A stretch of DNA of 39,243 nt from Acidobacteria bacterium RIFCSPLOWO2_02_FULL_67_21 (lineage in GTDB: Bacteria > Acidobacteriota > Vicinamibacteria > Vicinamibacterales > UBA2999), in contig MEKU01000048.1 in assembly GCA_001767195.1 (NCBI GenBank), positions 23,649 through 62,891 of the forward strand, written 5' to 3'. Below, in pieces: positions 5,718-30,817 of the stretch. A program made the position numbers and the translations under genes. Below the pieces are notes generated by a model. The model had not been told where the DNA came from and searched no databases. It worked only from the letters and a program-made list of their open reading frames with translations. Within the stretch, counting starts at the first letter, position 1, and each line of letters starts with the position of its first letter.

Positions 5718-5739
5718 CTCCCGCGGATCGCCGCAGGAG
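5718..5739 (-). promoter_or_regulatory. Expression-platform hairpin of the fluoride riboswitch
   Basis: On the minus strand CTCCTGCGG, loop CGAT and CCGCGGGAG pair over nine bases (one G-U). The first arm reuses the CTCC that the aptamer needs for its pseudoknot, so hairpin and ligand-bound aptamer exclude each other. No uridine tract follows, so whether it stops transcription or acts in another way is undecided. Fluoride would be expected to disfavour the hairpin and raise crcB expression. Confidence 0.6.
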
Positions 5740-5788
5740 TCATTGGCCGTCCAGTCGGGGCCGGCGGTTCAGGTGGACTCCACCACCA
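5733..5788 (-). ncRNA. Fluoride riboswitch aptamer (crcB motif) upstream of crcB
   Basis: Read on the minus strand, the leader has the crcB-motif parts in order. The first stem is GGTGG/CCACC around TGGAGT. Next is AACC and a GCCG/CGGC stem, then CAATGACTCCTGC, which matches the known 3' consensus (the AATGAC and CTCCT portions). GGAGTC of the first loop pairs perfectly with GACTCC at the 3' end, giving the expected pseudoknot. It lies 71 bases before the crcB start. Motif order and pairings are seen in the sequence; fluoride sensing is established for this RNA class; function here is inference. Confidence 0.85.
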
Positions 5789-5799
5789 ACGAGACGTCC

Positions 5800-14983: not shown

Positions 14984-15140
<157 letters not shown>

Positions 15141-15239: not shown

Positions 15240-15313
15240 GGAGCGGGAAACGGGATTCGAACCCGCGACTTCGACCTTGGCAAGGTCGCACTCTACCACT
15301 GAGTTATTCCCGC
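15239..15313 (-). tRNA. tRNA-Gly (anticodon GCC)
   Basis: The acceptor is GCGGGAA/TTCCCGC, the anticodon stem CGACC/GGTCG with loop TTGCCAA (anticodon GCC), and the T loop GGGTTCGAATCCC. CCA is encoded. It starts 21 bases after the galT stop and lies 98 bases upstream of tRNA-Cys in the same direction. Confidence 0.96.
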
Positions 15314-21807: not shown

Positions 21808-22635
21808 ATGGCTGAGACTGCGGAACGTAACAGCGCGGGCGCCCGGTTCGACCGCCTGGTGGAGATCATGCGCGCCCTGCGCGCGCCCGGCGGGTGCCCC
21901 TGGGACCGCGAGCAGACGCATGCCTCGCTCCGCCCGTTCGTGCTCGAGGAGACCTACGAGGTGCTGGAGGCGATTGAGGGCGGCTCTGCCGACAGCCTGC
22001 GCGAGGAGATCGGCGACTACCTGTACGAAGCCGTCTTCCTCGCGCAGATCAGCGAAGAGGCGGGCGACTTCTCGATTGGCGAGGCCGTCGACTCGATCTG
22101 CGACAAGCTCGTGCGCCGGCATCCCCACGTGTTTGCCCGGCAGCAGGGCGACGCCGACATCACGACCGCGCAGGTGCGGGAGCGGTGGGAGACGATGAAG
22201 GCGCGCGAGCGCGGAACGGATGCCGCCCGGCCGAAGACGACGCTGAGCGGGGTGCCGAAGACGCTGCCGTCGCTCCTCCGCGCGTACGAGATCAGCGCCA
22301 GGGCCGCCGCGGTCGGCTTCGACTGGGCCCGCGCCGCTGATGTGTTGAACAAGATCGAGGAGGAGGTTGCCGAGGTGCGCCGCGAGGTCGAGTCGGGCGC
22401 GACCGGCCACCTCTCGCGCGCCGAAGAGGAGATGGGCGACCTGCTCTTTGCCATCGCCAACCTCTCGCGCAAGCTCGGGATCGAACCTGAGTCGGCGCTC
22501 CGGCGCGCCAACGAGAAGTTCACGCGGCGATTCGACGCTGTTGAGGCGGCCTTTGCCGACCGCGGCCGATCGGTCCACGATGCCACGCTCCAGGAGATGG
22601 AGGAGGAGTGGCAGCGCGTGAAGGAGGCGTCCTAA
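21808..22635 (+). CDS. mazG: Nucleoside triphosphate pyrophosphohydrolase MazG
   Basis: 275 residues from ATG 21808 with GGAGA upstream. It has the tandem MazG domains of the full-length enzyme. The first has GGCPWDREQTHASLRPFVLEE, YEVLEAIEGG and REEIGDYLYEAVFLAQI (the EExxE and ExxD Mg2+ motifs); the second has KIEEEVAEVRREV and RAEEEMGDLLFAIANLSR. It hydrolyses NTPs and aberrant dNTPs to monophosphates. The TAA stop (22633-22635) shares two bases with the inverted-repeat element that follows. It converges on comEC across that element. Confidence 0.95.
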   Translation: MAETAERNSAGARFDRLVEIMRALRAPGGCPWDREQTHASLRPFVLEETYEVLEAIEGGSADSLREEIGDYLYEAVFLAQISEEAGDFSIGEAVDSICDKLVRRHPHVFARQQGDADITTAQVRERWETMKARERGTDAARPKTTLSGVPKTLPSLLRAYEISARAAAVGFDWARAADVLNKIEEEVAEVRREVESGATGHLSRAEEEMGDLLFAIANLSRKLGIEPESALRRANEKFTRRFDAVEAAFADRGRSVHDATLQEMEEEWQRVKEAS

Positions 22636-23140
22636 CCACGAAGATCACGAAGACAGCGAAGGGCACGAAAGCCTTCATTCAGACGACGATTCTCCTGAGT
22701 CCGTGCTTCAAGACCGCGACGCGGAAGTTGATCAACAGGCCGCCGCGCAATCCGGTCGTGCGCAGATATGAAATCAACTGTGCGCGGTGCACTTCGTCGA
22801 GCTTGACGACGGATTTCAGCTCCACGATGATGGCATTGCCAACGATGAGATCCACGCGCTGTCCGGCGATCTCGATGTCGCGGTACTTGACGCGCACCTG
22901 CCGCTCCGATTCGTAGGACGGACCGAGCGCCTCGAGCTCGATCTGCATGGCTTTCCGGTAAATAGACTCCAGGAAACCTGGCCCCAGTGCCCGATGGACA
23001 CGGATGGCACATCCGATGGTGGAGGACATCACGTGCTCGGCGTGTGCGTCGAGAGGCGATGGGATGCGCATACGATGTGCGGGCGATAAGCGTGATTCGT
23101 GACCTTCGTGATCTTCGTGATCTTCGTGTCCTTCGTGGTT
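22634..23140. mobile_element. Putative element: GxxExxY gene framed by inverted 9-bp repeat arrays
   Basis: Left arm 22634-22672 is AAC plus four 9-bp units (CACGAAGAT, CACGAAGAC, AGCGAAGGG, CACGAAAGC). The right arm, inverted, 23140 to 23093, is AAC plus five units (CACGAAGGA, CACGAAGAT twice, CACGAAGGT, CACGAATCA). Both ends start AACCACGAAG. The unit fits exactly between the stop codons of mazG and comEC and holds only the GxxExxY gene. The same ends occur without a gene at 27464-27552. No clear target-site duplication is seen. Mobility is inference. Confidence 0.6.
22679..23071 (-). CDS. GxxExxY protein (PD-(D/E)XK-like)
   Basis: 130 residues from ATG 23071. The name-giving motif is GFLESIY (32-38), preceded by IGCAIRVHRALGPG. 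A nuclease-like D-x(n)-ExK core follows: Asp74 in RVDLIVG and Glu84/Lys86 in IIVELKSV, then QLISYLR and GLLINFRV. This is the usual GxxExxY layout, and these proteins belong to the PD-(D/E)XK superfamily; biochemical function is unknown. The frame is open upstream to an ATG at 23143, which would add a His/Glu-rich stretch (NHEGHEDHEDHEGHE) translated from the right repeat arm. I prefer the later start but cannot exclude the longer form. Both flanks are inverted 9-bp repeat arrays. Confidence 0.88.
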   Translation of the reverse strand: MRIPSPLDAHAEHVMSSTIGCAIRVHRALGPGFLESIYRKAMQIELEALGPSYESERQVRVKYRDIEIAGQRVDLIVGNAIIVELKSVVKLDEVHRAQLISYLRTTGLRGGLLINFRVAVLKHGLRRIVV

Positions 23141-25581
23141 CATCGTCGTGTCCCCATGTACGTTCGAATCTCGACCTCTCGGCCATCGGTGGCGACGGCG
23201 ATCTGACCGTCGCGGTCGGTGCGGTAAACCCGGGCGCCGACGGCGGCCAGGCGGTCGAGCACCTCCGGCGACGGGTGGCCGAAAGAATTGCCGCGGCCGC
23301 TGCTGATGAGGGCGATCTGCGGGCGCCAGTGGTGCAGCAGCTCGTGCGACGTGGACGTGCGGCTGCCGTGATGGGCGACTTTGAGGATCCGCGTGGGGGC
23401 GGGCGTGAGCTGCGGCAGGATGGCGCGCTCCACAGCGGCGCTCACATCTCCCAGCAGGAGCACCGCCACACGCCCGTACAGCAGCTCGAGCACAACCGAA
23501 TCATCGTTGCGCACGCGCCGGCGCTCCCACTCCTCGGGCGGCGGATGAAGGACCCGGATGCGCGCGCCGGCGAGATTGCGCTCGTCCCCGGCCCGCAGCG
23601 GACCGACTCGGGTGCCACGCGCACGGGCGCGCGCCAGCACCGCCTGGAGCGGCGCGTGATCGTGAACGGCAATGCCTTCCCAGACGACCGACGGATGGAA
23701 ATCGTCGATCGCCGCCGGCGCCCCGCCGATGTGATCGGGGTCGCCGTGCGTGAGCAGGAGCCGGTCGAGACGCCGCAGCCCGCCGGCCCAGAGCGCCGGC
23801 GCGAGCACCCGGGTGCCGAGCTCCACATTCCCACCTCCGAACGGCATCCCTCCCGCATCGACGAGCAGCGTCGACCGGTCCGGCAACTGGACCAGCACCG
23901 CTTCTCCCTGCCCGACATCGAGCATCGTCAGCCGCAGCCCGGACGATAGCGGTGCCGTCGAGACCGGGATCGGCCGGCCGGTCACGATCGCGCCTGCTGA
24001 GGCTACGAGCACGAGCAGCCCGGCCACCCGCGCCGCCGTTCGCGGCAGGAGCACGAGCGCCAGCCCCGTGTAATACAGCGCGACGACCCCGAGGGGCGGC
24101 GGAGGCACACGCGCGGCCAGCCAGGGCGCCGCGTCAACCAGCCCCGCGCTCCCGACCAGCGCGCCCGCCGCCTGGCCGGCAAGCCATCCGGCCGGCGCAG
24201 CGAGCGGTCCGAAGGCGTCGAAGATCGCCACCGCCATGCCGCCGATCTGCACGATGCCCATCAGCGGAACCGCGGCCAGGTTCAGGACGAGCCCCGCCGA
24301 CGTCACACGGGAGAACGTCGTGGCACTCACGGGAAGGAGCACGGCCTCCGCCGCGGCGGATGCTGCCAGCGAGGCGATCAACCACCTGGCGAGGCGGCTC
24401 CCCGCCGGCGCCCGACCCACCCGGCGTGCCGCTTCGAGAAGTGCCCCGGTCGCACCGAACGTCAGCAGGAAACCGGCGTCGCGCACATCGAGCGGCCGCG
24501 CGCACAGGATGAGGGTGCCGGCAAGCCCGATCGCATGCCAGGGGCCCGTGCGATGGTCCAGCAGCCGCGCGCTGAAATAGACAATGCCCATCAGCGTCGC
24601 GCGCCAGACGGAGGCGGCCGCGGTGACCACCGTCGCGTACGCGGCAAGCACGCAGATAGCACAGGCGGCCGCCCGCCTCCCTGTCATACCGAGAAGATGG
24701 AGGCATGCCAGCGTGACGGCCGCCAGGAGGCCGATGTTGCCGCCCGAGATCGCAATCACGTGGTACGTGCCGGCCGCCTGAAGGCGAAGCCGCACCTCGT
24801 CGGGCAGGCCCGTCCGGTCGCCAATCAGCACGGCCGTGACGATGGCGGCCGACACCGGGCCATGCGGCGCCACCCATCGGTCCATGCTGCGCCGCACGTG
24901 CCGGCGCACGACGGCTGCCGCCTCCGCGATCGGCCCGGCCCTGGACTCGACGTCAACCAGGAGTCCGCTCTTCACCGAGCCAAACAGGGTGATGCCATCG
25001 AGCGCGAGTGCCTGCTCGAAGTCGGGAACGCCTTCGTTCAGGTACCGCGCCGGTCGCCTGAACGTGGCAAACGCGTGGATCGTCCGCCCGGCGCGCCATT
25101 CCTCCGCCGCGCGGCGGGACGCTCCGCCGGCGACCAGCAGCCCCACTGTGCCTGCGGTGGCCTGCCACCGGCCTCTCAACCGGATCGCCACGACGTCTGC
25201 ACTGAGCCTGACGCCGTCGGAATCGACGGCCGCATCCTCCAGGAGAAGGGCACGGACGCCGATCGGATCGTGGCGAGGCGCCGGCGCCACGGCGCCGATC
25301 GCGAATCCACCGAGCTCGTGGTCGAGCGCGGCCCGGAGCGGCGTGCGAAGCGCCGTGTCACGCGCGTCCACGGCGACCGCTGCGGAGCCCGCGAAGAATG
25401 AGGCCGCAACGAGCGCCGCGGTCAGACGCCCCCGCCTCGCCCACCACGCGACCCATCCGCCGGCCAGCAGCGCCGCGGCCGCCAGCGCGGGTGGAATCAC
25501 CCACGTGGAGATCAGGCCGAGCAGCGAACCCGCGATCGTTGCCAGCGCGGGCAACAGCCCGACGACGCTCACGACGGGCAC
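23140..25581 (-). CDS. comEC: ComEC/Rec2-family DNA uptake channel
   Basis: 813 residues from GTG 25581. The N-terminal part has two membrane helices and a DUF4131-like domain. The middle is the multi-helix competence domain with SAAIVTAVLIGDRTGLP and YHVIAISGGNIGLLAAV, the hallmark ISGxN region. The C-terminal third is a metallo-beta-lactamase domain with TMLDVGQGEAVLVQLPD, LLTHGDPDHIGG and KVAHHGSRTS. The protein carries single-stranded DNA across the inner membrane during natural transformation. No other competence gene is in the window. The stop overlaps by one base the end of the inverted-repeat element shared with mazG. Confidence 0.94.
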   Translation of the reverse strand: MPVVSVVGLLPALATIAGSLLGLISTWVIPPALAAAALLAGGWVAWWARRGRLTAALVAASFFAGSAAVAVDARDTALRTPLRAALDHELGGFAIGAVAPAPRHDPIGVRALLLEDAAVDSDGVRLSADVVAIRLRGRWQATAGTVGLLVAGGASRRAAEEWRAGRTIHAFATFRRPARYLNEGVPDFEQALALDGITLFGSVKSGLLVDVESRAGPIAEAAAVVRRHVRRSMDRWVAPHGPVSAAIVTAVLIGDRTGLPDEVRLRLQAAGTYHVIAISGGNIGLLAAVTLACLHLLGMTGRRAAACAICVLAAYATVVTAAASVWRATLMGIVYFSARLLDHRTGPWHAIGLAGTLILCARPLDVRDAGFLLTFGATGALLEAARRVGRAPAGSRLARWLIASLAASAAAEAVLLPVSATTFSRVTSAGLVLNLAAVPLMGIVQIGGMAVAIFDAFGPLAAPAGWLAGQAAGALVGSAGLVDAAPWLAARVPPPPLGVVALYYTGLALVLLPRTAARVAGLLVLVASAGAIVTGRPIPVSTAPLSSGLRLTMLDVGQGEAVLVQLPDRSTLLVDAGGMPFGGGNVELGTRVLAPALWAGGLRRLDRLLLTHGDPDHIGGAPAAIDDFHPSVVWEGIAVHDHAPLQAVLARARARGTRVGPLRAGDERNLAGARIRVLHPPPEEWERRRVRNDDSVVLELLYGRVAVLLLGDVSAAVERAILPQLTPAPTRILKVAHHGSRTSTSHELLHHWRPQIALISSGRGNSFGHPSPEVLDRLAAVGARVYRTDRDGQIAVATDGREVEIRTYMGTRR

Positions 25582-26083: not shown

Positions 26084-26089
26084 GTGTGG

Positions 26090-27463
26090 ATGGCTGATCG
26101 GCGCCCGGTCCTGCTCGTCGTCGACGATGAGCCCGCCATCCTCGGCATCGTGCGGCGGTTTGCCGAAAGCGAAGACTTCGACGTGGCCACCCATGCAGGA
26201 GGCCGCGATCTGGTCGCCGAGCTCCCGGCGCTCAAGCCAGACGTGGCGCTCGTCGATCGGAACATGCCTGAGGTCGGCGGCCTCGACATCCTGCGCACCA
26301 TCCGCGAGATCGATCCCGCCTGCCAGGTGATTCTGATGACCGGGGAGGCCACCGTCGACTCCGCGGTCGAAGCCGTCAAGCTGGGCGCGCTCGACTACCT
26401 CAGCAAGCCGCTCGATTTCGATCGCCTGCGCGAGCTTCTGAGTACGGTCCGGCACGGAATCGAGCGGCGCCGGAGGCTGCTCGCGGCCGACACGGAGCTG
26501 GCGAGCCGGTTCGAGTTCTACGGAATGATCGGGCGCAGCCCCGCGATGCAGGAGCTGTTCGATCTCATCCGGCGGCTGGCGCCGCATGCGCGCACCGCCC
26601 TTCTCACCGGCGAGACGGGCACGGGCAAGGAGCTGGTCGCCCGCGCGATGCACAGGCTCGGGCCTCGCCGCGACCGGCGCCTGGTGGTCTTCAACTGCTC
26701 CGCGATCGTCGACACGCTGTTTGAAAGCGAGCTCTTCGGCCACACGCGCGGCGCCTTCACCGGCGCTGTGGACTCGAAGGCCGGGCTCTTCGAAACGGCA
26801 GACCGCGGCACGCTCTTCCTCGACGAAGTGGGCGAGCTGCCGCTCGCGGTCCAGGCCAAGCTGCTCCGCGCGATCGAGTACGGCGAGGTGCAGCGGGTCG
26901 GATCGAGCGAGGCACGCCGCGTCGACGTCCGCACGATCGCGGCGACGAACCGGCGGCTGAGCGACGAAGTCTCCGCGGGGCGGTTCCGGCAGGACCTGTA
27001 CTACCGCCTCAACGTCGTCGACATCGGCCTCCGGCCGCTGCGCGAGCGCCGGGAGGACATCCCGTATCTCACCGCGGCGTTCGTCAAGGAATTCGGCGAG
27101 CGGTTCGGCAAGTCGCTGACCGGCGTGAGCCCCGGCGCCGAGCGGCTGCTGCACAACGCGCCCTGGCCAGGCAACATCCGCGAGCTGCGCAACATGATCG
27201 AGCGCGCGTGCATGCTGAGCGAGGGGCGCATGCTCAGCGAGCGTGAAGTGCTGCATGCGCTGGGTGGGGCCACCCAGCGCGGGCCGACCCTGCCGCAGCC
27301 GGCGGCGCAGGCCGACAGCCTGGACGCGCAGCCCCAGCTGGATGGGCGGACGGTCGAGCGCGTGCTGCAGCAGGTCGGCGGCAACCGCTCGGCCGCGGCG
27401 CGCCGGCTCGGCATCAGCCGCCGCGCGCTGTATCGGCGCCTCGACGCGTTCGGCCTGCGATGA
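26090..27463 (+). CDS. NtrC-family sigma-54-dependent response regulator
   Basis: 457 residues from ATG 26090; a GTG at 26084, directly after the upstream stop, is an alternative. The receiver domain has the acidic pair VVDDEP and phospho-acceptor Asp56 (VALVDRNMP) with the later Lys in DYLSKPLD. The AAA+ domain has Walker A GETGTGKE (174-181), GAFTGA (221-226), which contacts sigma-54, and LFLDEVGELP. The C-terminus has a Fis-type helix-turn-helix (GGNRSAAARRLGISRRALYRRL). Phosphorylation would drive hexamer formation and open sigma-54 promoters. The only histidine-kinase-like neighbour is the stand-alone DHp protein. Target genes are not evident here. Confidence 0.95.
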   Translation: MADRRPVLLVVDDEPAILGIVRRFAESEDFDVATHAGGRDLVAELPALKPDVALVDRNMPEVGGLDILRTIREIDPACQVILMTGEATVDSAVEAVKLGALDYLSKPLDFDRLRELLSTVRHGIERRRRLLAADTELASRFEFYGMIGRSPAMQELFDLIRRLAPHARTALLTGETGTGKELVARAMHRLGPRRDRRLVVFNCSAIVDTLFESELFGHTRGAFTGAVDSKAGLFETADRGTLFLDEVGELPLAVQAKLLRAIEYGEVQRVGSSEARRVDVRTIAATNRRLSDEVSAGRFRQDLYYRLNVVDIGLRPLRERREDIPYLTAAFVKEFGERFGKSLTGVSPGAERLLHNAPWPGNIRELRNMIERACMLSEGRMLSEREVLHALGGATQRGPTLPQPAAQADSLDAQPQLDGRTVERVLQQVGGNRSAAARRLGISRRALYRRLDAFGLR

Positions 27464-27552
27464 AACCACGAAGGGCACGAAGAACGCGAAGAACACGAAT
27501 TCCTTCGATCCGGAGCGTTCGTGACCTTCGTGAGCTTCGTGTCTTCGTGGTT
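27464..27552. repeat. Gene-less inverted array of 9-bp repeats (MITE-like)
   Basis: Left arm: AAC, CACGAAGGG, CACGAAGAA, CGCGAAGAA, CACGAATTC. Right arm, inverted: AAC, CACGAAGA, CACGAAGCT, CACGAAGGT, CACGAACGC. A 12-base spacer separates them. Ends are AACCACGAAG as at 22634-23140. It lies directly after the stop of the NtrC-type gene and before carB, between convergent genes, where it may also act as a terminator hairpin. Confidence 0.85.
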
Positions 27553-27559
27553 GACGTAA

Positions 27560-30817
<3,258 letters not shown>

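Follow-up and report, generated by a model that had tools for sequence, protein, structure and literature searches.

The stretch of acidobacterial DNA analysed here (39,243 nucleotides, hereafter the window) carries at positions 27464-27552 an inverted array of short repeats that encloses no gene, and its ends are identical to those of a nearby unit encoding a GxxExxY protein. The window is part of contig C48 in a 4.19-Mb, 99.5% complete assembly (genome G000). The locus therefore raises the question of whether the array is a mobile, non-autonomous relative of the GxxExxY unit, as an earlier note on this DNA had proposed, or a hairpin with another origin or role, such as a transcription terminator.

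The gene-less array and the GxxExxY unit

Both elements are built from CACGAAG-type units, as the earlier note had described. In the array these are arranged four per arm, following the scheme CACGAAG-NN-CACGAAG-NN-CGCGAAG-NN-CACGAA and its inverted counterpart; after the spacer the right arm reads TTCGTG-AC-CTTCGTG-AG-CTTCGTG-T-CTTCGTGGTT (Table 1). The gene-less character of the array was borne out, but the spacer measures 18 bases in the present parsing and not 12 as first described. The folding energy of the array is -52.1 kcal/mol (z -8.2). The four element ends had been said to share their start, and AACCACGAAG was found at exactly those four positions of the window (22634 and 27464, and on the minus strand 23131 and 27543). 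With one mismatch allowed there were six window matches against 1.3 expected in shuffled sequences, and no shuffle reached six. The placement directly after a stop codon and between convergent genes likewise held. At the carB stop in relatives, an array was observed in G014 and array-like fragments in G015, G024, G006 and G031; in G011, G026 and G004 this site contained no array.

Table 1. Coordinates of the array, the GxxExxY unit and other features of the window.
Feature	Positions	Strand	Remarks
Fluoride riboswitch (crcB motif)	5727-5796	-	
tRNA gene	15070-15140	-	
tRNA gene	15242-15313	-	
mazG-like gene	21808..22635	+	TAA stop uses AA of arm
GxxExxY outer arm, mazG side	22634..22669	+	
GxxExxY (PD-(D/E)XK nuclease family) gene	22679..23068	-	core reading from downstream ATG
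GxxExxY outer arm, comEC side	23105..23140	-	gene's first in-frame ATG overlaps arm edge
comEC-like gene	23140..25581	-	TGA stop overlaps arm edge
Response regulator with sigma-54 interaction domain	26084..27463	+	TGA stop (27461-27463) abuts array
Left arm, gene-less array	27464..27499	+	four units: AACCACGAAG GG CACGAAG AA CGCGAAG AA CACGAA
Spacer (hairpin loop region) between arms	27500..27517		18 bases
Right arm (inverted), gene-less array	27518..27552	-	end is CTTCGTGGTT
carB-like convergent gene	27560..30817	-	stop 7 nt from array; name from protein reading and position

The GxxExxY unit occupies positions 22634-23140. Its gene is intact and a full-length member of the known GxxExxY family (TIGR04256, 125 bits against a cut-off of 35; PF13366, PDDEXK_3, 125.9 bits against a curated cut-off of 22), and the catalytic-type residues H, GxxE, E, D and ExK are invariant across 25 relatives. 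The structure of the protein was predicted with confidence (mean pLDDT 93). The best structural matches in the PDB belong to the PD-(D/E)XK class, with modest scores, and include the Cas4-like SSO0001 and Hjc Holliday-junction resolvases; SSO0001 was the top match in VIA-align (Z 9.5, 98 residues, rmsd 3.2). Foldseek with the model returned no match at E<0.001, and a sequence search of the PDB returned nothing. Judging from this predicted fold, a structure-specific nuclease beside mismatched hairpins would make a natural pairing. The GxxExxY frame is open through the comEC-side arm (23105-23143) to an ATG at 23143 that overlaps the comEC stop (ATGA), and translation from there may give the protein an arm-encoded MNHEGHEDHEDHEGHE extension at its N-terminus; the same layout of arm, ATG and comEC stop was observed in locus L046.

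Copies, placement and mismatches

Rather than being unique to its locus, the array is one of about 33 gene-less copies in a genome that carries a single GxxExxY gene. Genome-wide, AACCACGAAG has 27+31 occurrences, compared with 1+0 for a reversed-pattern control. A single-arm sequence model derived from 46 arms was used to search the genome and returned about 70 arms at E<0.004 followed by a gap down to noise, and the family therefore lies far above chance. They comprise 33 short paired arrays (a count in which one arm, at C53:4600, was placed by hand), three pairs around longer DNA, and otherwise only two single arms and a weak fragment. The three pairs bracket the GxxExxY unit, 0.5 kb on C21 and 3.1 kb with toxin-antitoxin genes on C32. 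In the last of these (C32:8698-11796; L024:2999-6097) two facing CACGAAG arms surround a GIY-YIG-type (T5orf172/MUG113) protein, a ParE toxin with its antitoxin and a Doc toxin with its antidote, possibly a cargo-bearing relative.

Pairwise identity among the copies has a median of 0.76 and a maximum of 0.86, with differences in the variable bases and the spacer, and unit positions match the consensus in 96.8% of 1450 cells. No Rfam family matched the arrays. Scanning a collection of genome contigs identified one relative only, and none was found in viral contigs. A DNA-uptake-signal reading of AACCACGAAG was rejected because the sequence is nearly confined to the arrays.

All but one of the 33 paired arrays lie in intergenic DNA. 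The exception (C16:18318; L019:3019-3104) is inside the ORF of a transporter-like gene, and the matching site in G002 (L296) has a different palindrome-containing insert. The arrays also sit close against stop codons: using gene calls from a purpose-written codon-usage finder, with which the window's long genes were retrieved, 27 of 37 array-facing stop codons (73%) were located at -2 to +5 nt from the array edge, against 6.5% for random intergenic placement. The AA of the array completes a TAA codon in eight cases and its A a TGA codon in five. The residual intergenic DNA has a median of 9.5 bp, versus 55 bp at junctions with a facing stop. Such placement could arise either by targeting or by selection.

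A strong hairpin between convergent genes invites the interpretation that the array at 27464-27552 serves as a bidirectional intrinsic transcription terminator, the secondary role that had been suggested for it. However, no U-tract follows the stem on either strand, the flanks being GACGTAAT on one side and TCATCGCA on the other; the single, weak terminator call was on the minus strand, within the left arm. Moreover, of the 40 units placed, 29 have neighbouring genes that share a strand, often with gaps of a few bases, as at atpD|atpC and rpsB|tsf. This operonic placement and the missing U-tract argue against the terminator reading, to which we assign only a very small probability.

Plain selection for pairing of the hairpin would predict matching variable bases in its two arms. 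Covariation favouring perfect pairing was sought between the arms, and the opposite was seen. The two arms agree at variable positions less often than expected by permutation, both in G000, where this avoidance of pairing was first noticed (identity 0.253 versus 0.375; 26 arrays, P 0.0004), and in the remaining genomes in which it was then tested: G014 (0.261 versus 0.442; 23 arrays, P <0.0002), G002 (0.367 versus 0.445; P 0.05) and other relatives (0.314 versus 0.392; P 0.10). Pooled, the identity is 0.285 against an expected 0.411 (sd 0.021). Descent from two founder end types was rejected as the source of the mismatches, since the main mismatch positions are unlinked within arms (X3-NN3b: p 0.97 in G000 and 0.36 in G014; one of eight linkage tests in G000, X3-NN2a, gave p 0.042). 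Because the units are conserved while the arms avoid pairing at variable positions, the folded strand appears to be under constraint, with 7-bp helices separated by mismatches.

Instability is a known property of long perfect palindromes, and the assemblies used here are fragmented, so the mismatch rule might instead reflect the instability of near-perfect palindromes or their loss from short-read assemblies. Survival of imperfect palindromes together with assembly bias possibly contributes. As the whole explanation we find it doubtful, given that the mismatches are limited to fixed positions, that the units remain 96.8% consensus and that NN2b, though a variable position, is mostly paired; it would in any case touch the mismatch rule only, leaving the evidence for insertion unaffected.

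Insertion and association with GxxExxY genes

Empty sites had been proposed as a test of mobility, and the joined flanks of 18 arrays were used to search four related genomes. Many joined flanks align straight across the join, identifying empty orthologous sites in related genera (G004, G011, G002 and G026) and hence the arrays as inserts. The atpD|atpC junction (names from protein reading) is unbroken in G004, G011 and G002, and G026 carries an array at the same point. At the C26:27288 site, G011 and G002 have 8-bp CACCGAG-type arrays instead. With relatives bare at these junctions or carrying other unit types or unrelated palindromes, it follows that junctions are re-used and arrays gained or lost. 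No consistent target duplication was found by eye, the empty sites coming from genera 12-30% diverged. Among sites filled by CACGAAG arrays in G000, other palindromes were observed in G026 and G011 (L286, L287, L291, L292, L293), comprising TAAATGGGGTCGGAGG..., GAACC-type, TTGGGC-type, GTCTTTCGTC-type and CCCAACGC-type arrays; a given stop-codon junction thus seems to draw hairpins from many unrelated families.

The comEC-mazG junction is found in several states. The gene and its arms are kept in ten loci that have both neighbours (two of which, L046 and L239, are identical in sequence), and the GxxExxY gene looks vertically inherited here. The junction holds a gene-less CACGAAG array in G026, a single arm in G022, and 26-79 bp with neither gene nor arm in G011, G012 and G075. 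Taken together, the copy number, the empty sites and the occurrence of gene-bearing, gene-less and empty states at one junction uphold the proposed kinship of the array with the GxxExxY unit, as a MITE-like form that lacks the gene.

The distribution of the arrays could also be understood if they were hairpins kept by the host at gene 3' ends, whatever their origin, for control of translation or mRNA stability at the stop codon. The proximity to stop codons and the retention of the units while variable bases changed would suit such a role, and REPs located within 15 nt of a stop codon have been reported to cause ribosome stalling and reduced translation (PMC12306157). Nevertheless, many relatives have nothing inserted at these junctions, essential operons included, so no single array is needed, and we judge this account quite improbable. 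Origin and function of the arrays are not mutually exclusive.

To relate arrays to the gene, an array was scored beside a locus when a unit array pointed inwards from at most 350 bp away. Such arrays were found on at least one side of 27 of 37 GxxExxY loci and on both sides of 15, compared with 0/26 Y1 transposase loci and 4/114 pseudo-genes, none of these on both sides (Fisher 4e-12). The 37 loci include seven additional ones, taken from multi-copy genomes blind to their flanks; the unit pattern was drawn after some flanks were known, so these figures lean upwards, and the same pattern was applied to the controls. The unit type beside the gene varies by genome (CACGAAG, CACGGAG, CACAGAG, CACCGAG, CGCGAAG or AACGGAG). 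The link extends beyond Acidobacteriota to Bacteroidota, Gemmatimonadota and Pseudomonadota and was present in four of eight plasmid-collection records examined (Bacteroides, Bernardetia, Gemmatirosa and Sphingomonas). The Bacteroides unit sits directly after the radA stop, a junction that is bare in Parabacteroides. We found no prior description of arrays flanking GxxExxY genes in the literature searched, which covers only a minority of subscription journals.

Arrays are not equally frequent in genomes without the gene; equal frequency was the outcome that the earlier note had named as counting against its proposal. At least four arms were detected in 24 of 40 genomes with GxxExxY and in 7 of 59 without it (Fisher 6e-7, treating genomes as independent); conversely, the gene is present in 24 of the 31 genomes with at least four arms and in 16 of 68 others. 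The number of arrays does not rise with the number of GxxExxY genes. The gene was not detected in the array-rich genomes G014 (115 arms), G091 (77 arms), G026, G075 and G021, and completeness is 92-100% in G014, G026, G075 and G091. No other mobility gene was found within arms in the loci read from GxxExxY-free genomes. That gene-less arrays always share the unit type of their own GxxExxY gene was considered and rejected: this is true in G000, G011 and G046 and fails generally, the type flanking the gene differing from most gene-less arrays in G002 and others. In G002 one GxxExxY gene lies within CACGAAG arrays (L233) and another within 8-bp CACCGAG-type arrays.

More elaborate arrangements were also observed. 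In L240 (G058) the arrays by the GxxExxY gene form roughly three head-to-tail repeats, spacer included, which suggests nested insertion or local duplication. In G091 (L082, L168-L190) outer CACGAAG arms surround nested hairpins spanning about 200-290 bp, in which the stems still pair although their sequence has changed; no Rfam family matched them. Similar nested hairpins occur alongside GxxExxY in L111, L126 and L131.

A different enzyme, for example a Y1 (HUH, TnpAREP-like) transposase, might move the arrays as REP-like inserts, with the GxxExxY genes being captured passengers. A Y1 gene is present in 28 of 31 genomes with at least four arms and in 39 of 68 others (p 0.001), some array-rich genomes lack GxxExxY (G014 among the array-rich has six Y1 genes), and arms sometimes enclose other DNA such as the toxin-antitoxin block. 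REP partner genes typically have repeats alongside, whereas none of the 26 Y1 loci, which include one of the two Y1 genes of G000 (L213), has an array beside it; furthermore, G015 bears arrays without any Y1 gene, and passenger capture leaves the link between GxxExxY and arrays in four phyla unexplained. We consider this alternative unlikely.

Proposed mobilisation and comparison with known systems

In summary, the array at 27464-27552 is a genuine non-autonomous insert of REP/MITE-like character and a relative of the GxxExxY unit. The explanation we favour, by a modest degree, is that it belongs to the GxxExxY element family and that a nuclease drives insertion of the mismatched hairpin at gene junctions. 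The GxxExxY unit consists of a small PD-(D/E)XK nuclease gene between two inward-facing arrays, each composed of 7-bp units with 1-3 variable bases between them. Gene-less copies would be the arms without the gene, probably originating by internal deletion or copying of the ends, and would persist where insertion falls into the gap at a stop codon. The working form may be the folded strand, with mismatched bases between 7-bp helices. Acting in cis or in trans, the GxxExxY nuclease would recognise or cut the element ends in their mismatched hairpin or cruciform form, a step that would drive insertion at gene junctions. Mobilisation by GxxExxY is plausible, the presence of arrays tracking that of the gene, and we infer both the identity of the enzyme and every chemical step. 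Counting against it are the array-rich genomes in which the gene was not detected, array numbers that do not follow gene numbers, GxxExxY genes whose flanking unit type differs from that of most gene-less arrays in their genome, the apparently vertical inheritance of the comEC-mazG copy, and the failure to see a consistent target duplication.

More tentatively, and at somewhat less than even probability, GxxExxY units may represent a new class of mobile element, in which a lone PD-(D/E)XK nuclease, neither DDE nor HUH, moves itself and many gene-less hairpins to stop codons. The structure recognised would be an imperfect hairpin that combines 7-bp units and programmed mismatches. If true, this would assign a concrete function, with testable substrates, to a widespread protein family and account for a class of REP-like repeats that lacks a Y1 transposase. 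Both the stop-codon rule and the mismatch rule provide sharp, countable predictions for any genome that carries arrays.

Among known repeats, the TAACTGA heptamer arrays of Beggiatoaceae and others resemble the present arrays in having 7-bp units and an intergenic location near gene boundaries. In the heptamer arrays the repeats are direct, lie for the most part ahead of start codons and include hardly any inverted pairs (PMC4679880), whereas the arrays described here are inverted, located at stop codons and have variable bases between units. Like REP/REPIN sequences with their TnpAREP (RAYT) partner, the arrays are short, intergenic, imperfect palindromes in many copies near stop codons, with lineage-specific types and a partner enzyme; stop-codon placement is a habit they share with E. 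coli REPs, whose hairpins require a bulge for recognition (PMC8266576, PMC12306157). REP/REPIN palindromes have a GTAG or CGTC tag at one end (PMC3733652), but no shared tag was found in the flanks of the arrays, which end in AACC...GGTT; in addition, their arms are tandem 7-bp units and their associated gene encodes a PD-(D/E)XK nuclease, with no Y1 gene beside them at the loci tested. Like the MITEs of bacterial insertion sequences, the arrays are gene-less, have ends identical to those of a gene-bearing unit and correspond to empty sites in relatives. Unlike MITEs, their copies are only about 76% alike (median) and their partner is no known transposase; no clear target duplication was seen in the comparison with the diverged genera. 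The arrays work like both REPINs and MITEs, and we file them under neither class because the end tag and the Y1 partner fail for the first and copy identity for the second.
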